Shown here piece by piece: positions 1,757-21,520 of a stretch of DNA of 21,520 bases. The first letter of the stretch is position 1, and every line of letters begins with the position of its first letter. The position numbers and the translations under genes are program-made. The notes under the pieces were generated by a model, which did not search any database, had not been told where the DNA came from, and worked only from the letters and a program-made list of their open reading frames with translations. The stretch is from IMG/VR virus record IMGVR_UViG_3300013136_000580, positions 1 to 21,520 of that record; one strand, written 5' to 3'. The stretch is from a virus.

Positions 1757-2062
1757 ATGGAGCGTATAGTACATACTGACGATAAAGGTCGCAACTATGA
1801 TGCGTGGAAGGGAGAAGATGGTCAATTTGTTATCATAGGACCAGGTGAGGGTTTGGTTGATTCTCTCGAATTACCTGAACCATTTGCAACAAGATTACAC
1901 AATGTATTACATTCCCGCGGGTTATTAAACTCACGAGAATTGAGCAGGAGATCGAAAGAACTATTCGGTGCTTTACAGGAGGCTTTGACAATTGACGTAC
2001 AGCGGTTGAACGAAGCATATTATCAATATGAGCAAGAAGATTTAGGAGGTCGAAATGACTGA
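1757..2062 (+). CDS. Small neck or tail-completion protein, unidentified
   Basis: This 101-residue protein follows the connector stop by two bases, with AAAGGA at 1746-1751 as ribosome binding site. It begins with a short beta part (RIVHTDDKGRNYDAW, QFVIIGPGEG) and continues with charged helices that may form a short coil (RELSRRSKELFGALQEAL). It lacks cysteines, a signal peptide and membrane segments. In siphovirus gene order the slot between connector and tube usually holds a head-tail joining or tail-terminator protein. That is a positional inference only. Its last eight bases overlap the tube gene, so the two are probably translationally coupled. Confidence 0.6.
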   Translation: MERIVHTDDKGRNYDAWKGEDGQFVIIGPGEGLVDSLELPEPFATRLHNVLHSRGLLNSRELSRRSKELFGALQEALTIDVQRLNEAYYQYEQEDLGGRND

Positions 2063-3557
2063 AGAAGTTGCCTTAACTAGTTTGAACCAAAGAGTATGGT
2101 ATGTGGAAGGTGGGGTACATCCCCTCCGCTCTCCCGAGTTTTTAGGGTTGGGCAAATTCTCATCCGATCCATCACATACGATTGGTGAAGACACCAAGAT
2201 AACCGCGCCTGATCCCAATGACTTTACAAGAGATATTCAGATTGGGACTGTACGCGGAAATGATGAGCGTCCTACGCTATCCATCGGTTCGCGTTATACA
2301 TCCCAGAAAGATATTCTCATGGGATGGAAGAACCGCCGATGCCGTGTTGATATTTATGCCCTGACGGGTCGTTGCGGAAATCCACAAGACTTTTCAGAAG
2401 GTGGCGAAAAATGGGTATTCTTCCCTGATGGTCAAATCTCCAGCCACAGCTTTGAAAACTTCGGTGGATATGGTCGGGATGAAAACTCGCCCACCAACGA
2501 TTCTGTTGATATGACAGCCGAGGATTACTGGGAATTTCTAAAAATGAACCAGGAAGAAATCGGACAGGCTGAAGCCATCCGCTCCATTATGACCATTGAT
2601 GTCTATCGTGGCGACAACTGCGAAGATTGTGATGATCCATGCGCACGTATTTTAGCCACCATGACAGGTGCAGGCACAACTCCTGGTACTTTGCCAAAAC
2701 TTCTATACTCGGATGATGGCGGAGACACATTCTCAGTTGAAAATATATCCACCATGTTCTCTGATGAAAATATAACCGATGGTGAAATTATCGGTGGCGA
2801 TTATGTGGTTCTGTCCGCAGATTCAAAGTCGCTGCACTACACCAATATTGGCGAATTGTTCCTAGACGAGAATAGCTGGAAAGAGGTTACTTCTGGATTC
2901 AACACCACAAAAGCACCTCAGGCTATCACATCTGTTGATGCACGCCATAGTTGGATATGCGCTCTTGGCGGGTATATCTATTTTGTGAGAAACCACAAGA
3001 TAGGCGTTGAGATACAGGAACAGGGTGTTGTTACAACCAATAACTTGTATGACATCCACGCCTATGATAAAGATCGCGTGGTTGCCGTCGGTGCATCAAA
3101 CACCGTCTTGACAACAACCAACGGTGGACTGACGTGGAGCTCTGTGACCGGTCCATCCGTCGGTGTTACCCTTGCCTGTGTTTATATGTGGGATAATGAC
3201 ACCTGGTTCGTTGGTGAAGGCGCAGGAGGAAGCGGCAAACTGTGGGTTACGAATAATACAGGTAACACATGGACTGAAATTGCCCTGCCTGCAACCTATG
3301 TCAGGATTTACGCCATTGAATTCGTGTCCGTAGCTGAAGGCTATCTCCTGGCTAACTCCGGATCACAAGGTTATGTGTTGAAAACCATCACCGCCGGAAA
3401 CGAGTGGGATGTACTGCCACAAGGCAGAAAGACCATCGCAGTTGAGAACTCTTACCTGCGTGAACTGGCTGTATGCTCTAAATATGCCAACACTGTTTAC
3501 GCTGCGGGCGTGGCAAAGGACGGATCGTCAGGCACAATCTTAAAGATGTCTGCTTAA
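2055..3557 (+). CDS. Major tail tube protein with C-terminal YCF48/BNR-type beta-propeller
   Basis: Residues 1 to about 187 are beta-rich and sit where the tail tube gene is expected, directly before the frameshifted chaperone and tape measure. A short cysteine cluster (C189, C192, C196; CEDCDDPC) acts as a linker. From about residue 205 to 500 there are repeated blades with BNR/Asp-box-like signatures: YSDDGGDTF near 218, TTNGGLTW near 353, VTNNTGNTW near 397, and a degenerate copy near 442. The alternation of a short hydrophobic strand (VVAVGASNTVL) with the box resembles YCF48/Hcf136 propellers of six or seven blades. AGGAGGT at 2044-2050 precedes ATG 2055. Siphovirus tube proteins are commonly 150-250 residues, often with one small Ig-like domain, so a propeller of about 300 residues is unusual. 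The tube call rests on gene order and length. The propeller is visible in the repeats. Confidence 0.65.
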   Translation: MTEEVALTSLNQRVWYVEGGVHPLRSPEFLGLGKFSSDPSHTIGEDTKITAPDPNDFTRDIQIGTVRGNDERPTLSIGSRYTSQKDILMGWKNRRCRVDIYALTGRCGNPQDFSEGGEKWVFFPDGQISSHSFENFGGYGRDENSPTNDSVDMTAEDYWEFLKMNQEEIGQAEAIRSIMTIDVYRGDNCEDCDDPCARILATMTGAGTTPGTLPKLLYSDDGGDTFSVENISTMFSDENITDGEIIGGDYVVLSADSKSLHYTNIGELFLDENSWKEVTSGFNTTKAPQAITSVDARHSWICALGGYIYFVRNHKIGVEIQEQGVVTTNNLYDIHAYDKDRVVAVGASNTVLTTTNGGLTWSSVTGPSVGVTLACVYMWDNDTWFVGEGAGGSGKLWVTNNTGNTWTEIALPATYVRIYAIEFVSVAEGYLLANSGSQGYVLKTITAGNEWDVLPQGRKTIAVENSYLRELAVCSKYANTVYAAGVAKDGSSGTILKMSA

Positions 3558-4128: not shown

Positions 4129-4402
4129 CGGCGAGAATCTGGTCAGCGTCACGGAAGTTGAGCTGAACCACGGCCCCAATACAGGAATACGCCTGCGCGT
4201 ATTGGGAAACGGATTAATTCCGGTTTTCGAGGAGCATAGTGTTAGAATAGATAACAGGTTAAGTTTGGAGGAATGGGATAATATCCCATATATGGAGCGT
4301 GCCATGATCGTCGCCTTACATCGAGTGAAAAACGCTATAAATAATCTGTTTACAGAAGCACAGATACGAGAGGATAATAAAATAAGCAAAGGACGAAGAT
4401 AA
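4109..4402 (+). CDS. Tail assembly chaperone, frameshift extension
   Basis: This frame is open from 4091 to TAA 4400-4402 and carries protein-like sequence (NLVSVTEVELN, RLRVLGNGLIPVFE, AMIVALHRVKNAINNLF) with no ATG or GTG start upstream of or within its first half. TTG 4202 is the first possible start but lacks a Shine-Dalgarno sequence and would delete a well-formed segment. Production by +1 frameshifting from the upstream gene is therefore the best explanation. It adds about 97 residues, as the T region does in lambda gpGT. Its stop overlaps the tape measure ATG by one base. A +1 shift (or -2) is less common than the lambda-type -1 shift. Confidence 0.65.
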   Translation: MGALINNGENLVSVTEVELNHGPNTGIRLRVLGNGLIPVFEEHSVRIDNRLSLEEWDNIPYMERAMIVALHRVKNAINNLFTEAQIREDNKISKGRR

Positions 4403-6936
4403 TGGTCGCACCAGCAACGATAGCATCGGCACAAAAAATATTAGTAGGTGTTCAATTTGCAGTCACCTCAATTAATAAATTTAATAAACAAGTTAGTGAG
4501 GTGAAAAGCATTCTGAATTCTATTAAGCCGAAGGCGACTTTAATCGAACGCGCCTTCAAGTCTTTGAGCGACAGAATAAAGGACTTCTCAACCAACGTGA
4601 TAGGGAGGATACTTACCATCGCATTCGGCGTATTGGCCAGAGATGCGATTCAAACAATAATATATAAATTGGGGGAAATGATTAATGTTGTTATTGAGGC
4701 TACCAATGAGTTCCAAGCTTTGGAAATACGATTAAACACATTCAACCTTAACTCATTAATTGAATCTGGTTTATCCTATAACAAAGCCATTAGAGAATCT
4801 ATCAAATTAACGAAAGATCAATTAGAGTGGGCAATTAAATTAGCAAAAGCATCTCCCTATGATGTATTAGAGACTGCAGCGGGTTATTCGCTGGCACGAT
4901 CGTATGGTTTTGCGGACGAAAAAGCAAGAAAATTAACCAATGCCATACTTGATTTTTCGGCAGGTATGGGATTAAATAATGATGCAATTGAACGCATTAT
5001 TACCAACTTGGGGCAAATGTCTCAGCAGGGTAAAATCACTGGAACAGAACTGCGCGACCTTGCCAGAGGTTCGTTTGTTCCCGTAAATAAGATTCTTGGA
5101 ATGGTTGCAAAGAATCTTGGGATAACAACCAGCGAGCTTAATAAATTGAGAAAGGCAGGAACAACAGATCCTCAATGGTTCATTGATGCCTTTATTCAAC
5201 TTGCCGATACCGAATTTGCTGGTGCGTCAGAAAGAATGTCGCGTACTTTTGGCAAGGCAATAGGAAATATGAAAGACTTATTTCTTAGTTTATTTACCCT
5301 GCATTCAATTAAACCCGTATTTGATGCCCTCGGCGCAAGTATAGCCAATTTAGTTGAGGCTTTTGATGATAAAAAATTCGCCATATTAGAATCTTTATTT
5401 AAAAGAATAGGTAGAGCGCTCGTAAATATTGTAAATGGCATACTGGGTCTTTTGCCAAGCGCAGAATCAATGTCGGATACGATTATTGATGTAATTGGCA
5501 ATATTGCGGTGTGGTTGGAGAAAAATAGAAATACTATAGTAGAATGGGCAAAAAAAGCAATAGAACTATTTAATAAAGTCTCATGGGCGGTGGGCAACGT
5601 ATTAATCCCTTTCATAAAATATGAATTATTACCTGCACTGCAAAGATTGAAAGAATGGTTTATTGAAAATAAAACAATGATTATTCTGGTTGTTAGTATA
5701 TTGATTGCCATGTTCCTGGCGTGGGAAATAGGTGTGATAAATGTCAGATTACAATTCTTGCTGCTTGGATTTGCATTTAAGTCACTGTTAGCACCTATTA
5801 AATTTTTATTTACTTCTATAAAAATTTTATTTGCAGCTCTTGCATTAGCGTTGGAGGCTATTCCCCTTTTATTTATCAAGGTAATAATTAAAATAAGATC
5901 ATTAATTAAAGCAGGTAATTGGGAAAAACTTGGTTTGATGATCATATTTGGTATTGTAAATGGGTTATTTGCAGGTTTACCTATTTTAATAATGACGGTC
6001 TTCAAGATAATAAGCTGGATAATCACCATATTTAAAAGCGCCTTTGGTATGCACTCACCATCTAAAGTGATGGCAAATCATGGTTTGAATATCATGCTTG
6101 GGCTTGCCAACGGCATCAAGCTGGGAGGTCTTGTGGCTATATCGGCAGCCAAAGACATTGCCGATCAAGTTGCAGGTGTAATGGGAATTACCAATAACAA
6201 GGTTGGTCAGAATCTTGCGGGACAGTTTTTGGGCAAGAATAACGATGTAATGCGCGGTGAAATGACTAAAGGAGAAAAAGAAGACCCGTGTGCTTCGGGA
6301 ATAGACAAATGTATCACCGCCCCAATAGTGACCGCACTGGGAGGAATAGGAGACCCGTGTGCTTCGGGAATAGACGAATGTATCACCGCCCCAATAGTGG
6401 AAAAATTGGGAGAAATAAGGGAAAACAATGAAAGATGGATTAGGAAAAATGGAATAGAAAATGATACCGGCAATTTCTGGGAAAATATGAGCATTGACTC
6501 CGAGGTTTTATGGAATCAAATGAGCATTGACTCCAAGGCTATGTGGGAAGATATTAAACGTTCTTTCTTAGATAATTGGACAGGAGTTCCAGAAGAAATA
6601 GCAAACAAAATTACTACCAGCACCACCAACGGAACAAACAAATGGTTTTCATATTTCATAACTAAAATTGATGAGATAGCTGTTAAATTTTTGAATATAC
6701 CACAAGCTATAATTGATTTTTTAAAAAAATTTGATTTTTCAGACTTTTTTAATAACTGGGGGAAAGGAGGATCAGGATTTGATAAAAAAGGTTTTCAGTT
6801 TGGCAGTACCGTTCCTACACAAGGAAGAACTTACAACTCTAACGTAAGAAACTTGAGTGTTACCAATAACTTCAACCATATGCAAAAAGGACAGTCTATT
6901 ACAATGGATTACGAAGATTTGAGATTCTGGGTATAA
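4402..6936 (+). CDS. Tape measure protein
   Basis: At 844 residues this is the longest virion gene here and follows the frameshifted chaperone, as tape measures do. It has a helical N-terminus, a tape-measure-type domain at roughly residues 130-310 (ASPYDVLETAAGYSLARSYG, MGLNNDAIERIITNLGQMSQ, TGTELRDLARG), and hydrophobic segments near residues 425-450, 455-490 and 512-545. A GMHSPSKVMANHGLNIM motif near residue 550 is also typical of this family. The C-terminal third carries a 23-residue cysteine repeat (6282-6399) and an 11-residue repeat (MSIDSxxxWxx, at 6487 and 6520). No peptidase or muramidase motif is visible. By the usual 1.5 angstroms per residue the tail would be about 125 nm. AAAGGA at 4388-4393 precedes ATG 4402. 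Confidence 0.9.
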   Translation: MVAPATIASAQKILVGVQFAVTSINKFNKQVSEVKSILNSIKPKATLIERAFKSLSDRIKDFSTNVIGRILTIAFGVLARDAIQTIIYKLGEMINVVIEATNEFQALEIRLNTFNLNSLIESGLSYNKAIRESIKLTKDQLEWAIKLAKASPYDVLETAAGYSLARSYGFADEKARKLTNAILDFSAGMGLNNDAIERIITNLGQMSQQGKITGTELRDLARGSFVPVNKILGMVAKNLGITTSELNKLRKAGTTDPQWFIDAFIQLADTEFAGASERMSRTFGKAIGNMKDLFLSLFTLHSIKPVFDALGASIANLVEAFDDKKFAILESLFKRIGRALVNIVNGILGLLPSAESMSDTIIDVIGNIAVWLEKNRNTIVEWAKKAIELFNKVSWAVGNVLIPFIKYELLPALQRLKEWFIENKTMIILVVSILIAMFLAWEIGVINVRLQFLLLGFAFKSLLAPIKFLFTSIKILFAALALALEAIPLLFIKVIIKIRSLIKAGNWEKLGLMIIFGIVNGLFAGLPILIMTVFKIISWIITIFKSAFGMHSPSKVMANHGLNIMLGLANGIKLGGLVAISAAKDIADQVAGVMGITNNKVGQNLAGQFLGKNNDVMRGEMTKGEKEDPCASGIDKCITAPIVTALGGIGDPCASGIDECITAPIVEKLGEIRENNERWIRKNGIENDTGNFWENMSIDSEVLWNQMSIDSKAMWEDIKRSFLDNWTGVPEEIANKITTSTTNGTNKWFSYFITKIDEIAVKFLNIPQAIIDFLKKFDFSDFFNNWGKGGSGFDKKGFQFGSTVPTQGRTYNSNVRNLSVTNNFNHMQKGQSITMDYEDLRFWV
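6282..6399 (+). repeat. Direct repeat in the tape measure gene (two 49-base copies, 69-base period)
   Basis: Copies at 6282-6330 and 6351-6399 match at 48 of 49 bases. They encode DPCASGIDxCITAPIV twice, each with two cysteines, spaced 23 residues apart. Near identity at silent positions indicates a recent duplication kept in frame, not two old structural repeats. Confidence 0.9.
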
Positions 6937-6944
6937 GGTGTGAT

Positions 6945-9422
6945 ATGTCAAAATTAAGTATTCTTGTTCCCGAATCTACAACCAATTATATTCGTAATCC
7001 GGCATTAAGGATTGACACCACGGGTTGGAATTCCTTCCGCAGTGCAAACATATTGCGCTCTTATACTTATTCGAGACATGGCATTGCTTCCCTGAAGGTT
7101 GTAACGCTTGGTACAGTCATATCCGAAGGCGCATATTATCGTGTCAATGAATTGGTAACTTACGATAGCCCCGTAAGCGTGAGTGTTTATGTTCGCGGCG
7201 AGGGCAAGATAATTTTACGTCTGAACGATAATAGTGCCGACTCAACTGGATCACCCAATGTACGGCAATGGGATTCCAAAATAGCAACTTTGCGTAATGA
7301 TAGATGGCAACGCATAACTGTTCCAGGTTATTGCGCAAAATCAGACAACATGAGCATGGTCATAACAACTTACGGAGAGACGCCACAAGCGGTTACATTC
7401 TACGTTGATGGCGCACAGATGGAATTACACCCTTACGCGACTACATACTGTGATGGATTTCAACCTGGTTGTCATTGGAACGGTCTTTATGACAGTTCTA
7501 CGTCATCCAGGAGTGCTTATACGAGAGAAGGTGGTAGGTGGGCGATGGTTTCTGGACCCGATAGAGAGCGCGAAGATATTTACATGACTGTTGTAACAGG
7601 ACTTGGGGTTGCCCCGATAGCCAACAACAGACATGTTTATTCGCTGTCACCTGGTGGGTATCTGGATAACGTCAAAATACTTGAACGCCCCATCTCCCTG
7701 TTATTTCATGTAAAACACAAATCTATTCCGCGAACATGCAAGGAAGCTTTGTCTCTGGATAAACTCCACGAATTGAGACAGATGCTGATAGATATAATCA
7801 AACCTGATAGAACAGCAGGTAATCAACCATTTTGGCTAGAATATCAGGATGGAGACATTCCCCTTTATATAAAAGTACATTATGATGGCGGGCTGGAGGG
7901 TGATTGGGATATTCGCAATCAATGGGTGATGGACTTCCCATTGCGTCTGCTTGCTCTTTCCCCGATGATGTATGAAGATAATCAGGAAAACTATGCCATA
8001 GATTTTACCAACACAGCCACGTTCAACGATGTGGTGGGAAAGATAGATGGAGACTGGAACAGTTTGAACGCTGGCGTAAATAATACCGTGCGCACTCTGG
8101 CAGTTGGCAAGAATGGTGAAGTGTATGCAGGCGGCATATTCACATCGGTTAACCCTGAATCATCAGACGCAGCCGTCATAGCTTATTATGATGGAACGGC
8201 ATGGATCAACATAGCAACTTCAATGACGGGAAGCGACATATTAGCCCTTGCCGTTGCTCCCGATGGAACTTTATACGCAGGTGGTACATTTTCGATATTG
8301 AACGGAGTAGCCGCCGCCAATATTGCAAAGTGGGATGGTACAACATGGACTGCACTAGCTGCGGGTGTTAATTCAACAGTTAACGGTATCTCCGTTGCCC
8401 CCAATGGTGATGTATTTGTGGTGGGTGCTTTTACAACCGCAGGTGGTGTTTCAAGACGATATGTAGCAAGGTATGACGGAAGTTCATGGCATTCAATGGG
8501 CGCACAGGCAGGCTTGAATGACGCCTGTTATTCAGTTGCAGTATCAAAAGATGGCAAACATGTTTATGTGGGCGGTGATTTCACAGATCAATATGGCTTG
8601 GCAGCAAGTGCATTACTTCGTATTGCCAAATATACGGTATCGACAAATACTTTCTCGGCAATGGGCAATGGATTTAATGGACGGGTAAATGATATAAAAT
8701 TATCAGATGCGAACATTGTTTATACCGGTGGTAATTTTTCCCTATCTGGTATTGCGCCCATGCTTAGAATAGCAAGGTGGAACAATTCGGCTTGGGAGCA
8801 GGTCGGCAATGGCTTTGATTCTAGCGTCTCTGGCATCGCCATAGATACCAAAGGGAACATGGTTGCTGTCGGCTCATTTGGTTATTCAGGCGAACTGCCT
8901 ATAAAAAAAATAGCCCTATGGAATGGTTCTACGTGGGTTTTCATGGACATCAATATTAATTTTGGAAGCGATACCATTACTCTTTATGCTGCGATATTCA
9001 AGGGAGACGACCTGTTCTTCGGCGGTTCAACTCTAGGAACACTCACGTCAAGATACTCTGGAATAACTTATGTCACCAACCCAGGAACTGCGGAAGTACG
9101 ACCAACATTCTATTTCAAGGGATATGGCAATTTGAGATACATTGAGAATCAAACTACGGGTGCGAAACTCTGGTTTAATCTCACTATTCTTGAGAACGAA
9201 GAGGTGTTTCTCGATCTTGGTAATGGCAGGTTCTATTCAAGCCTTCGCGGTGACTTATTCTATACAATGTTGCAAGGAAGTGATTTTCACGCCTTCACCC
9301 TGTTACCTGGTGAGAATAAAATATCCGCCCTGAAACTTAATGATGTCAACGCACTCATAAGAGTCATGTTCACACCTGTACATTGGTCTGCCGATGGAAC
9401 TAAAGTAGTCGAGGAATTCTAA
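6945..9422 (+). CDS. Distal tail protein (Dit) with N-terminal CBM-like domain and inserted seven-bladed beta-propeller
   Basis: The 825-residue protein appears to have four parts. Residues 5-167 look like a carbohydrate-binding module of the CBM4/9 jelly-roll type (TNYIRNPALRIDTTGW, ASLKVV, YVDGAQMEL). Residues 208-350 look like the ring-forming half of a siphovirus Dit (KILERPISLLFHVKHKS, WVMDFPLRLLALSPMMYE). Residues 369-712 contain seven repeats with a core like LAVxPDGxLYAGGxFT followed by IAKWDGTTWTAL, which is a beta-propeller. The opening strand GDWNSLNAG probably closes the ring. Residues 713-825 resemble the galectin-like second half of Dit (TFYFKGYGNLRYIENQ, NEEVFLDLGNGRFYSSL). The place after the tape measure supports Dit, the hub ring at the tail tip. 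Known Dit proteins can carry inserted carbohydrate-binding modules; a full propeller between the two halves is unusual. The predicted role is binding a cell-surface glycan. Confidence 0.75.
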   Translation: MSKLSILVPESTTNYIRNPALRIDTTGWNSFRSANILRSYTYSRHGIASLKVVTLGTVISEGAYYRVNELVTYDSPVSVSVYVRGEGKIILRLNDNSADSTGSPNVRQWDSKIATLRNDRWQRITVPGYCAKSDNMSMVITTYGETPQAVTFYVDGAQMELHPYATTYCDGFQPGCHWNGLYDSSTSSRSAYTREGGRWAMVSGPDREREDIYMTVVTGLGVAPIANNRHVYSLSPGGYLDNVKILERPISLLFHVKHKSIPRTCKEALSLDKLHELRQMLIDIIKPDRTAGNQPFWLEYQDGDIPLYIKVHYDGGLEGDWDIRNQWVMDFPLRLLALSPMMYEDNQENYAIDFTNTATFNDVVGKIDGDWNSLNAGVNNTVRTLAVGKNGEVYAGGIFTSVNPESSDAAVIAYYDGTAWINIATSMTGSDILALAVAPDGTLYAGGTFSILNGVAAANIAKWDGTTWTALAAGVNSTVNGISVAPNGDVFVVGAFTTAGGVSRRYVARYDGSSWHSMGAQAGLNDACYSVAVSKDGKHVYVGGDFTDQYGLAASALLRIAKYTVSTNTFSAMGNGFNGRVNDIKLSDANIVYTGGNFSLSGIAPMLRIARWNNSAWEQVGNGFDSSVSGIAIDTKGNMVAVGSFGYSGELPIKKIALWNGSTWVFMDININFGSDTITLYAAIFKGDDLFFGGSTLGTLTSRYSGITYVTNPGTAEVRPTFYFKGYGNLRYIENQTTGAKLWFNLTILENEEVFLDLGNGRFYSSLRGDLFYTMLQGSDFHAFTLLPGENKISALKLNDVNALIRVMFTPVHWSADGTKVVEEF

Positions 9423-10603
9423 TGGGTGCGACATATGAGTTCTGGCTGACAGATGATAGCGGGAACAAAATGTTCCTGCTTGATAAATATTCATCTGTTT
9501 ACTATACCAGATGTTGTAATATCCTATCCACCATTCAGATGTCATTCGCTTTCAAAGAATGGTTCTCGCAGGTTAAGCCCTTCTTTCAACCTGACTGGAG
9601 AATAGATGTATGGCGATGTCCAGGACAGGGCTACCCAATGCGCAGGGAAGAAATGTATATGCTTCGCAAGGCGGAGATTTATACGCGCAAATCTGATGGA
9701 ATTCAGATGATAATCCTGCGCGGCAGGAACGGCATGGAGCTGTTAAACAGGAGAAGCGTCATCCAGTTTGAGGAAACAAGTTATACAGATAAAACCGATT
9801 ACATTGACGATATGATGAAAGAGATTGTCAGAGAACAATGCCTGTATGGAAGCTGCCTGAACATATCTGGAGCTGTGGATAACGACAGAGGTTTTCCGGT
9901 AGACGAATTTGTAGTCCAGGAAGATTTATCTTTAGGACCAGAAACCACCCTATCCTGTCCGGACAGAGTTGTTTTTGACATAGTGAAAGAACTGCGCGAA
10001 ACCTCATTCGCCTTGAACTACAGCGACGAGACCAAAAGAAAAATATACTATTCAGTATCTCCTTTCATAATGACGGACGGAAGAGTTGGGTACAGGTTTG
10101 AAACTTATGCAGATTTGAGAGGGGCGGATAGGACTAACGGCGTGATATTCTCGGTTGAGAACGGGAACATGCTTGAACCTACCTATGAAGAGAATCATTA
10201 TGACGAGATTAACGCTTGCTACGCCAAGGGGCAGGGATTGGAGAATGAAAGGCTGACATATGAATTGGAGAACCTGACACTCATACAAAAGTCAAGATGG
10301 AACAGGTGTGAGGAAGTGCGCACCGCCACAAATGAAGATGGAGAAGATGGACTTATCACAGCTGCAAATACGGCGTTGGCAGAAGGCAGACCCATCTTTA
10401 TGCTCGACGCAACATTTTTGAACACACCTGGAAGCGAGTACACACCCAGAAGCCTGTATGGAATAGATTGGGACATGGGCGATCTCATTCCCGTCAATTA
10501 TGCCGGGAAACAATTTGATATTGAAATATGCAGTGTTGGTGTATCCATAGATGAAGATGGTAGCGAAAGCATAATTGGAAGGAGCGTTGAGAATGGAGAA
10601 TAG
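9422..10603 (+). CDS. Tail tip/baseplate hub protein, Siphovirus ReqiPepy6 gp37-like
   Basis: The 393-residue protein starts at an ATG that overlaps the Dit stop (TAATG), so the two are coupled. It begins with an FWLTDDSGNKMFLLDKYSS segment, followed by beta-rich sequence with an early hub-like part (SFAFKEWFSQVKPFFQPDWR, DVWRCPG) and later VFDIVKELRETSFALNY and ENHYDEINACYAKGQGLEN. These are the kind of features seen in the ReqiPepy6 gp37-like or Tal-like proteins that cap the tail tube under Dit. No peptidoglycan hydrolase motif is visible. Position between Dit and the fibre agrees. The family assignment is from recall of its general pattern, not from a profile search. Confidence 0.7.
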   Translation: MGATYEFWLTDDSGNKMFLLDKYSSVYYTRCCNILSTIQMSFAFKEWFSQVKPFFQPDWRIDVWRCPGQGYPMRREEMYMLRKAEIYTRKSDGIQMIILRGRNGMELLNRRSVIQFEETSYTDKTDYIDDMMKEIVREQCLYGSCLNISGAVDNDRGFPVDEFVVQEDLSLGPETTLSCPDRVVFDIVKELRETSFALNYSDETKRKIYYSVSPFIMTDGRVGYRFETYADLRGADRTNGVIFSVENGNMLEPTYEENHYDEINACYAKGQGLENERLTYELENLTLIQKSRWNRCEEVRTATNEDGEDGLITAANTALAEGRPIFMLDATFLNTPGSEYTPRSLYGIDWDMGDLIPVNYAGKQFDIEICSVGVSIDEDGSESIIGRSVENGE

Positions 10604-12719
10604 AAATGCTCTGATAACCATCCAAAAACATATTGACAAAATAGAGAAAGAGATACGCCGATTAGGGAGTATGAAGGTTCGCCAATTCAATGCACTTTTC
10701 GGATTGGCAGGTTCTGGTCACGTTATCATTGGCGTGGGTGGAATTCAGATAATGCAGAGTACAGCCGTCATGGGTGAATGGCAGACCGATGGCGACATAT
10801 TCATCGGTTCTAATATTGCTTCGCCTGCCTCCACCTATTTCAGCATACTGGCACAGGCACAGACCTACAACGGAGAGGCATTCAGTGCTGGAGATATGCT
10901 TATAGGTGATAACTCCGCGTTAAAAGCTAACATCTTTTGGGACAAATCGGCAGGAAGACTAAACTTCAGGGGAGGCACGACCACAAAGGCTTATATTGAC
11001 ACAGACGGAACATTCGTTGCGACAGGTGCGAATATAAGCGGAACCATCACGGCAACCACAGGCACAATTGGTGGTTGGACAATAGGATCAACAGAAATAA
11101 GAAATTCTGGTTCAACCGTAATACTAAGAGGTGCTGGAAATTTAGCATTTGGTGCAACTCCGCCGACAAGCGCATCTGTTGGAACAGGCTTATTTATGGA
11201 TTCAACCGGACTATATGGGTTGGCTTCAAGTGTTCAACAAATAATATTTAGTGCCGTCACCGGCAAGATCACCGCCGGAAATAATACGGTCACTATGGAT
11301 GCAAGTGGTATAGCCATACTAACTACGTCTTCTGCCTCATCCGAGGGGTCAATTGATACGCCCAACAATATAATGTGGAACTATTCACCCTATAAATCTT
11401 TTAACATCTATTCCTGGTACGATGCCTCAGCTGGATATATTTATGGAAACATAATTTCAAGAGCGAATGCAGACGAAACATCGGCAAGAATTCAAATAAT
11501 AACAAGAAACTATTCAACAACGCATAATGCTTCTATTGCGTTATTGTCCCCTGAAAGTTCAAACGGAATTATAACCATGGCGTCTGATAACATCATATTG
11601 ACTTCTACAAGTGGTGTTTATCTAAACGATACCACCAATACAAATTCCACAAATGGGCTTACTATAAATCAAGGAAATGCAGGTGATGAAATATTTTCTT
11701 TGAAAAGTTCTTTGATTGACCATCCTTACAGCAACAACACTGAGGCAGATACTTATTTTGGCATAACAAAGTTTATAACCGGTGTGGGTGGATCAGTTTT
11801 ATCTGGATTTACAGAAACTTATGTCGGGATGAACATCAAAGCCTATATTGTCAATACAAGCACCAATAAAACAACCGCGGCATCTGCTCCCATTTTGCTG
11901 GATTCTATATATAGTGGGGGAACAACTCCAGGTGTACCGCAGGTTCTTGGAAGCACAAATAATTTGCTTGTTATTAGAGATTATACGACAGCGAGATTTG
12001 CTTTTGATGCAGCCGGTACGTTACATCACATACCCGATAGTGATACAAATATCAACCTTCTTACAGTACAGGTAACTGACACACCAACAATTTCGTGGAA
12101 CGAAACGGCAGATACGTTCCAATTTAATAAGGGTATTCTATGCACGTATAAATTGACTGCCGGAGGTAACATACTCTCTGCCAATTCTAGTCCGCAGTTG
12201 GATGTAAATAGTTTGACCGGAGGAATATTATCCATCTCAAGTAGAGATGCGTCTCTTGTTGCCAATGACCTTATCGGTAAAATAATATTTTGGTCAAACG
12301 ATACCCAACTGACTACAAAAAATATAGGTGCCAGCATAGAGCTTTATGCTACGAACACCGTTTCAACTGACGCACCCCAAAGTTATATGACCTTCAATGT
12401 TTCGGGAAGTTCTACTGGAACTGATCCATTGGAGCATATTAAATTTGCTCCAACGACAGTACCGAAAATCGGATTTTTTGGAGCAACTCCCGTAGTAAAA
12501 CCTACGGCTTTAACAACCGCCCTAACAACAATTACCCCGCCTGCCTATAGCGCTGATTATACTATTCAAGCAATGATAAGCGTTACTGTGCCAGGAGGAA
12601 CACTTTGGGGATTCAAAGCAGAGAACGAGGGTAATACGGTTATAAATGTAATTAAAAATTTACAAGACAGAGTAAACGACCTTGAATCCAAACTTCAAGG
12701 GCTTGGCTTATTAACTTAA
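10593..12719 (+). CDS. Tail fibre / receptor-binding protein
   Basis: The 708-residue protein starts at ATG 10593, preceded by AAGGAG at 10579-10584, and overlaps the hub gene by 11 bases. The in-frame codons upstream fall in the hub gene. A short N-terminal coil (ITIQKHIDKIEKEIRRL) would attach and trimerise the fibre. The long body is rich in Gly, Ser, Thr and Asn with beta-structure repeats such as ANISGTITATTGTIGGWTIG, typical of trimeric fibre shafts. The end is a second coil (VIKNLQDRVNDLESKLQGLG, about residues 683-705). No intramolecular chaperone peptidase is recognisable. As the last large structural gene it is the probable host-range determinant alongside the propeller-bearing Dit. 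Confidence 0.8.
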   Translation: MENRNALITIQKHIDKIEKEIRRLGSMKVRQFNALFGLAGSGHVIIGVGGIQIMQSTAVMGEWQTDGDIFIGSNIASPASTYFSILAQAQTYNGEAFSAGDMLIGDNSALKANIFWDKSAGRLNFRGGTTTKAYIDTDGTFVATGANISGTITATTGTIGGWTIGSTEIRNSGSTVILRGAGNLAFGATPPTSASVGTGLFMDSTGLYGLASSVQQIIFSAVTGKITAGNNTVTMDASGIAILTTSSASSEGSIDTPNNIMWNYSPYKSFNIYSWYDASAGYIYGNIISRANADETSARIQIITRNYSTTHNASIALLSPESSNGIITMASDNIILTSTSGVYLNDTTNTNSTNGLTINQGNAGDEIFSLKSSLIDHPYSNNTEADTYFGITKFITGVGGSVLSGFTETYVGMNIKAYIVNTSTNKTTAASAPILLDSIYSGGTTPGVPQVLGSTNNLLVIRDYTTARFAFDAAGTLHHIPDSDTNINLLTVQVTDTPTISWNETADTFQFNKGILCTYKLTAGGNILSANSSPQLDVNSLTGGILSISSRDASLVANDLIGKIIFWSNDTQLTTKNIGASIELYATNTVSTDAPQSYMTFNVSGSSTGTDPLEHIKFAPTTVPKIGFFGATPVVKPTALTTALTTITPPAYSADYTIQAMISVTVPGGTLWGFKAENEGNTVINVIKNLQDRVNDLESKLQGLGLLT

Positions 12720-20575: not shown

Positions 20576-21520
20576 TCAAAACAACTGATCTTCACGCCCA
20601 TTAATTTCCAGGCAATGTGGTGATATAAATAAACACTCTCTGTGGCTGTTGCTTTTTCCATTCCTATTTCCTAAATTTCCATAACCGCCTCTTGTTTTCC
20701 AGTGATGAACACCCCATCCCGCATTTACGAGACGACTATATTCATCGTCATAACCGCATACGATAATCCGGTAGTTCGGATTAGTACCCCTTTCCAATAC
20801 CCACTCCTCAACCGCACCGGAAAGATCGTAACTATCGTGCCTGTATATGTCCTTCACTCTTTTTTTTGATCCATACGGCGGGTCAAAGAACATGCCTACC
20901 GGCTTGTTATTATCCTGCCAATTCCCACCGCATACCCGCGTCCAGTCTCCGCACACAACCTTTACATATCTCAGCCGCCGTTGTAACCTATGGATAATGT
21001 CCTGCTCACCTCCCAATTCGTGAGTTGTGATGCCTCGGTCCCATGTTAGGTGTGGTATCTTCGACGTGATGCCTTTATCGTCTGTTAGGTGTGGTATCCG
21101 CGACGTGATGCCTTGATCGTGTACTAGGTATGGTATCCCCGACGTGATGCCTTGATCGTCTGTTAGGTGTGGTATCTGCGACGTGATGCCTCCCTGAACA
21201 TCCCCCTTTCTTCTCGTCATCATTCCGCCTCCGATCCAGCACGAGGTGACGTATATCCAATAACCCGCCAGTTTAGCGTCGTGGAATTCCGGGTCTTTTA
21301 ACATATTCTCTAACAAGCTATTTTCTTTGTCTATCAATTGAATTCTGCGGGCTTCCATGTCCACATGACTAACCGGATTATCACAATACTTCATCACCTC
21401 ATCAGGGCTATGTATGATGGAACGCCATACGTTCACAATATGCCCGTCTTTATCATTGACGATCTCGTAGATTTTCTCGTGTTGTGTCGCTGGACGTTTC
21501 AGTAATACCGCACCCGACCC
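20576..21520 (-). CDS. dam: Dam-type DNA adenine methylase, N-terminus beyond the window
   Basis: The frame is open to the right edge, giving 314 residues of a partial gene. It starts with GSGAVLLKRP, the end of the FxGxG S-adenosylmethionine-binding motif of D12-class N6-adenine methylases. It has the catalytic DPPYG motif (FFDPPYG, Asp near visible residue 213) and a typical phage-type C-terminus (HHWKTRGGYGNLGNRNGKS, RECLFISPHCL). Between them, after YWIYVTSCWIGGG, lies a 13-residue repeat present four times (GITSxIPHLTDDx) with a fifth partial copy, then VKVVCGDWTRVCGGN. Phage Dam relatives, as I recall, carry similar GVxRKLPHL repeats in this place. The enzyme would methylate adenine in phage DNA, probably protecting it from host restriction. 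A GTG at 21436 is in frame but internal. Confidence 0.9.
   Translation of the reverse strand, partial: GSGAVLLKRPATQHEKIYEIVNDKDGHIVNVWRSIIHSPDEVMKYCDNPVSHVDMEARRIQLIDKENSLLENMLKDPEFHDAKLAGYWIYVTSCWIGGGMMTRRKGDVQGGITSQIPHLTDDQGITSGIPYLVHDQGITSRIPHLTDDKGITSKIPHLTWDRGITTHELGGEQDIIHRLQRRLRYVKVVCGDWTRVCGGNWQDNNKPVGMFFDPPYGSKKRVKDIYRHDSYDLSGAVEEWVLERGTNPNYRIIVCGYDDEYSRLVNAGWGVHHWKTRGGYGNLGNRNGKSNSHRECLFISPHCLEINGREDQLF
21024..21190 (-). repeat. 39-base in-frame tandem repeat in the methylase gene
   Basis: The anchor GACGTGATGCC recurs at 21063, 21102, 21141 and 21180, with a diverged copy (GTTGTGATGCC) at 21024, giving an exact 39-base period. Each unit encodes 13 residues of the form GITSxIPHLTDDQ. 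Units differ by a few bases, partly at coding positions (PYLVHDQ, PHLTWDR), so the array has had time to diverge while keeping frame. Confidence 0.9.

Follow-up and report, generated by a model that had tools for sequence, protein, structure and literature searches.

A Dit of uncultured siphophages with a predicted seven-bladed beta-propeller in its linker

Organization of the Dit-propeller locus

The stretch of DNA analysed here (the window) is an IMG/VR virus record of 21,520 bases. Its central feature is a gene whose 825-residue product combines domains of a phage Dit with a set of short sequence repeats, and this gene is flanked on both sides by genes for tail proteins. The features pertinent to our analysis are as follows.

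4402..6936, + strand: tape measure protein, directly upstream of the Dit-propeller gene (Pfam TMP_3, E 1.5e-19; PHROG tape measure)
6945..9422, + strand: Dit-propeller protein, 825 aa (open reading frame; AlphaFold model)
6945..7478, + strand: N-terminal CBM4_9-like beta-sandwich, residues 1-178 (family-level Pfam match; family profile)
7536..7979, + strand: Dit ring domain, residues 198-345 (structural matches; Sipho_tail in ring segments)
8046..9056, + strand: predicted closed seven-bladed beta-propeller in the Dit linker, residues 368-704 (Pfam, blade profile, AlphaFold, VIA-align)
8046..8072, + strand: outer strand that closes blade 7, residues 368-376, DGDWNSLNA (ends of VIA alignments; blade count)
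9060..9395, + strand: SPP1_Dit-type C-terminal domain, residues 706-817 (phrog_33 and SPP1_Dit profiles)
9422..10603, + strand: Gp37-like tail protein in the Tal position, directly downstream of the Dit-propeller gene (Pfam Sipho_Gp37, E 2.3e-10)

A second, identical copy of the Dit-propeller gene is carried by another IMG/VR record (L001; 10,350 bases). Among loci with both flanks, the order of tape measure, Dit-propeller and Gp37-like gene (about 370 aa) is kept, and the Dit-propeller gene thus occupies the place characteristic of a Dit, between a tape measure gene and a Tal-like gene, both in the window and in nearly all loci where both neighbours are present. An additional gene or a longer downstream gene is found at L002 and a few other loci. 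Farther downstream in the window, a large uncharacterised product of 714 aa (10575-12719) has no family match in Pfam or PHROG.

Several other elements of these records deserve mention. Upstream of the tape measure gene lies a gene of about 500 codons (window 2055-3557, + strand; L004 3317-4819, L011 1192-2721, L036 3258-4817), whose product is probably a tail-tube or tube-associated protein and ends in a Ycf48/sortilin-like propeller (2xbg, E 1.2e-5). These phages would therefore carry two unrelated propellers on their tail proteins. The tape measure gene itself contains a 69-bp direct duplication (window 6271-6417) that encodes DPCASGIDKCITAPIV-type repeats. On the opposite strand, an open reading frame at 20576-21436 has a DPPY motif (adenine methyltransferase-like) and contains a 39-bp tandem repeat of 3.8 copies (21044-21191), which codes for 13-aa units.

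The repeats are predicted to form a closed ring

An initial annotation of this DNA had proposed that seven repeats at 8040-9080, equivalent to residues 366-712 of the frame at 6945-9422, form a propeller inserted between the two halves of a Dit. The location is correct, but the number of full motifs is not seven. With a blade profile derived from family sequences, six complete repeats are identified (residues 380-673, 38-62 bits each), and these are followed by a degenerate seventh blade (residues about 677-704) that lacks the GG.F and AKWDG motif and has no last strand of its own. The outer strand absent from this blade is provided by GDWNSL (369-374), which precedes the first complete repeat. 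Pfam likewise recognizes repeats of this general type in the window protein, with scores of 71.7 bits for the Rax2 propeller (cut-off 28.8) and 32.9 bits for DUF5122 (cut-off 27).

AlphaFold, run with 24 aligned family members, produced a model with a mean pLDDT of 84.5 and a pTM of 0.76. When compared by VIA-align, the propeller in this model (model range 360-694) superimposes on the designed seven-bladed structure 7bif with Z 28.9 and rmsd 2.7 (273 of 286 residues aligned), and similar scores are obtained with the WD40 domain 5yzv (Z 28.8) and with RACK1 proteins (Z about 28). The alignments to seven-bladed propellers start at residues 368-369, in the GDWN strand, and end at residues 696-697, in blade 7, as expected if the ring is closed by a split last blade. 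Failure of the repeats to close would have counted against the original proposal. Instead, the model contains a closed ring of six full blades and one split blade, and the suggestion that the strand GDWNSLNAG completes the last blade is borne out.

The flanking domains are those of a Dit

The same annotation had assigned the sequences on either side of the propeller to a Dit-like ring and a Dit C-terminal domain, with separate non-Dit folds as the outcome that would overturn this view. VIA alignment of the full model gave only propellers, and so the Dit assignment was checked on a separate model of the ring domain (pLDDT 87.1). The nine top PDB matches of this domain are Dit-type proteins (Z 9.6-10.8) from TP901-1, monocin, 80alpha, NF5, Bxb1, Douge, SPP1 and p2 (two entries), which we take to be Dits partly by their entry titles and partly by what is established for these phages. 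Lower scores, of Z 8.1 or less, are obtained with tail tubes and other ring proteins. Furthermore, a profile made from 68 ring domains finds three weak matches in the PDB (E 0.065-0.12), namely NF5 Gp15, Bxb1 gp23 and SPP1 Dit, and Pfam Sipho_tail is recognized in 6 of 24 whole family proteins and in 19 of the 68 ring segments.

For the C-terminal domain, a match to Pfam SPP1_Dit at E<=0.1 is seen in 11 of the 24 family members, and L004 reaches 29.9 bits (cut-off 25). The match of the window protein lies under this cut-off, at 21.4 bits, with E 2.9e-4 in the protein from which the propeller has been excised. Excision of the propeller is also informative with PHROG profiles. In the intact protein, the phrog_106 alignment spans residues 153 to 757 and skips the propeller, while phrog_33 (Dit) covers the C part only (E 1.7e-7). 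Once the propeller is removed, phrog_33 runs unbroken over the junction and covers both halves (E 1.7e-13). Models of tail proteins of 277-302 aa in a viral structure library span about 630 query columns with a target-normalised TM of 0.67-0.69, which requires that both halves be superimposed simultaneously. Searches of the PDB with the C-domain profile found no solved relative, and phmmer searches of the PDB with the window protein returned nothing useful.

Taken together, these observations argue that both flanks belong to a Dit, and we conclude that the protein is almost certainly a siphophage Dit whose linker holds a closed seven-bladed propeller. The Dit fold, the closure of the propeller, its insertion site and its distribution across the family all rest on sequence comparison and structure prediction.

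The N-terminal CBM4_9-like domain had been overlooked in the initial annotation. Pfam CBM_4_9 is detected in 13 of 24 family members, the window protein itself not among them, and the N-domain profile (A3) matches solved xylanase CBMs (4xup, E 1.9e-7). By family profile, the domain is present in nearly all family members. CBM4_9-like N-domains also occur on other phage proteins that have no Dit ring or propeller (L172, L173, L179, L183 and L186-L189), suggesting that this domain may be a mobile N-terminal module.

Relatives lacking the propeller define the insertion site

One family locus, L036, resides in an Anaerolineae MAG, and 298 genomes of the class to which this MAG belongs were searched. 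The ring domain is found in six of them, as part of three propeller-sized open reading frames and three of about 290 aa. Of the propeller-less relatives from this class (L197, L198 and L199; 283-293 aa), two have matches to the ring profile (E 2.7e-17 for L197 and 6.8e-13 for L198) and also to the C-domain profile (2.7e-11 and 5.9e-16), and L199 has a clear ring match (1e-11) together with a weak C-domain match. The distance from ring to C-domain is 34-38 residues in L197 and L198 versus 363 in the window protein, indicating that the propeller occupies the linker between the two domains. L197 and L199 are each preceded by a large gene that is tape-measure-like by sequence.

Blade number is nearly constant in the family

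A single propeller-sized insert (330-410 aa) is present in 65 of the 69 non-redundant complete metagenomic homologues, and exactly six full repeats are found in 58 of these 65 proteins. Three proteins (L002, L014 and L168) carry 13 full repeats each, which corresponds to 14 blades, or twice seven. In L002 and L014, a shortened junction, read by eye, falls exactly at the boundary between blade 7 and blade 8. Blade identity in these two proteins is 48-62% in the first propeller and 34-36% in the second, and the greater likeness in the first suggests recent amplification. The insert of L184 is longer and divergent, and L127 and L128 are diverged with inserts of normal length.

L167 has five full repeats and was considered as a six-bladed counterexample to seven-fold closure. 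It was set aside because it contains 77-bp exact direct repeats, which might have collapsed during short-read assembly. In L131 (1979-4316) and L124 (6001-8420), the Dit-propeller frame is broken inside the propeller into two overlapping open reading frames, owing either to sequencing error or to a real frameshift.

A tblastn search of 50,697 phage records with four family proteins yielded no homologue spanning the Dit-propeller protein; the lone match, a weak one, is to the CBM region and lies in Arthrobacter phage Molivia. Likewise, no propeller within a Dit was found in the literature searched. Judging from the metagenomic sequences, the Dit-with-propeller design is common to a large group of uncultured viruses.

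The propeller evolves rapidly in one clade

Pairs drawn from L020, L022, L024 and L025, which form one clade and are not independent of each other, have similar dS values across domains (about 0.5-1.7). However, dN is 0.26-0.40 in the propeller versus 0.04-0.09 in the ring and C-domain, and the corresponding omega values are 0.27-0.43 versus 0.04-0.10. With synonymous divergence comparable among the domains, the protein sequence of the propeller changes 3-9 times faster than those of the ring and C-domain, a pattern that indicates amino-acid change rather than wholesale replacement. The CBM of L024 is divergent as well. In the clade of L129, L134 and L139, the propeller is constrained like the rest of the protein (omega about 0.05-0.09, unsaturated dS only). 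Omega is below 1 everywhere.

Within the repeat unit, variability in the L020 clade is highest at positions 2, 4, 5, 7 and 19. These positions also vary more than others in the clade of the window protein (0.81 versus 0.53), where 20,000 random position sets all fall short of 0.81, and most of the five are prominent in the L129 clade. In standard propeller topology, these positions correspond to the D-A loop or the start of strand A, and to the end of strand B. They lie on the face opposite to chain entry (outer strand D) and exit (strand C), and so the variable rim would face away from the Dit. An outward variable rim would fit receptor binding and would also fit an exposed surface under no constraint.

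A proposed role in host binding

In the mechanism we favour, the propeller would replace a linker of about 35 residues between the ring domain and the galectin-like C-domain. If the first strand after the ring completes the last blade on its outer side, then both connections to the Dit would exit from one face of the propeller, leaving the opposite face directed outward. Assuming the hexamer of the Dit family and standard propeller topology, from which subunit number and outward orientation are respectively inferred, six propellers, one per subunit, would surround the tail tip beside the N-terminal CBM-like domain. The outward face would then bind a component of the host surface, probably a glycan, at adsorption. 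Host-surface binding is a probable role for the propeller, and we hold with reasonable confidence to the overall reading of a Dit whose propeller most likely uses its outward face for this purpose.

A more ambitious version of this hypothesis makes the Dit itself the principal receptor-binding protein of a large uncultivated siphophage lineage, one that diversifies fast and presents a variable rim encoded by the repeats. The six propellers (twelve in the 14-blade forms) would have had their blades amplified and diversified one by one while the ring stayed fixed. We consider this version possible but put it forward tentatively.

Alternatively, the propeller might make no host contact and serve as a structural dock that holds a side fibre or some other receptor-binding protein, such as the 714-aa product encoded downstream, which is large and without a family match. 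There is precedent in the p2 Dit, whose galectin-domain extension (arm) serves as such a dock (PMC7291167). Propellers are common interaction platforms, and the strong constraint on the propeller in one clade is compatible with docking. A docking surface should be conserved, however, and in the L020 clade it is the propeller that changes fastest, the divergent CBM of L024 aside; moreover, the 14-blade forms would bring a second dock. We therefore judge this function to be unlikely.

Far less probable still is a sialidase-type enzyme acting on surface polymers. Propeller hydrolases do exist, and a GH74 structure is among the lower-ranked Foldseek matches, but WD40-like and designed propellers, which are not enzymes, head the structural matches, no propeller glycosidase family scores above the Pfam cut-off in the window protein or the 24 family members, and the seven short, near-equivalent blades have no long catalytic inserts. 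Finally, although the whole protein scores best, among tail-labelled PHROGs, with one named 'minor tail protein', the notion of a different tail protein that merely resembles a Dit, or of an assembly chimera, is largely refuted by the Dit fold and gene position, by 69 non-redundant homologues from many samples with nearly all in one layout, and by the identical gene in L001.

Relation to known phage adhesion modules

Decorated Dits have so far been described in phages that infect Gram-positive bacteria and are for the most part dairy-related. The evolved Dits of Lactobacillus, lactococcal and streptococcal siphophages carry their CBMs as insertions within loops of a peripheral galectin domain (PMC7291167). 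These proteins resemble ours in that a Dit acquires an extra, probably host-binding module, but here the insert is a seven-bladed propeller rather than a CBM fold, and it lies between ring and C-domain rather than in galectin loops. The initial annotation had drawn this contrast, which holds for the fold and site of the insert but is incomplete, given that the protein also has its N-terminal CBM-like domain.

The receptor-binding protein of Staphylococcus phage phi11 likewise places a beta-propeller, closed by an N-terminal strand, in a siphophage adhesion device, but that propeller has five blades and belongs to a separate homotrimer with a helical stem, platform and tower, outside the Dit (PMC4901313). 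The propeller in our model has seven blades, lies inside the Dit and is preceded by no stem helices. The C-terminal domain of PhiKZ gp131, cited in the same source, is a seven-bladed propeller at the baseplate periphery, and differs in belonging to a peripheral myophage protein that is not a Dit (PMC4901313). Cellular Rax2/DUF5122/kelch-like arrays (Hymenobacter, Verrucomicrobia and others) share the repeat type, with 30-40% identity, but are encoded by cells and are not phage Dits.

Dits with extra modules are therefore known, and what is new, on the predictions made here, is another fold at another site that recurs in many uncultured phages. The family combines whole-propeller doubling, from 7 to 14 blades, with rapid evolution of the propeller beside a conserved ring in one clade. 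If the more ambitious hypothesis is true, then the Dit ring would stay constant while the propeller rim varies blade by blade. The system thus offers a testable case of repeat propellers gaining new specificity upon a fixed ring base, and makes the propeller a candidate host-range module in phages that have no isolate.
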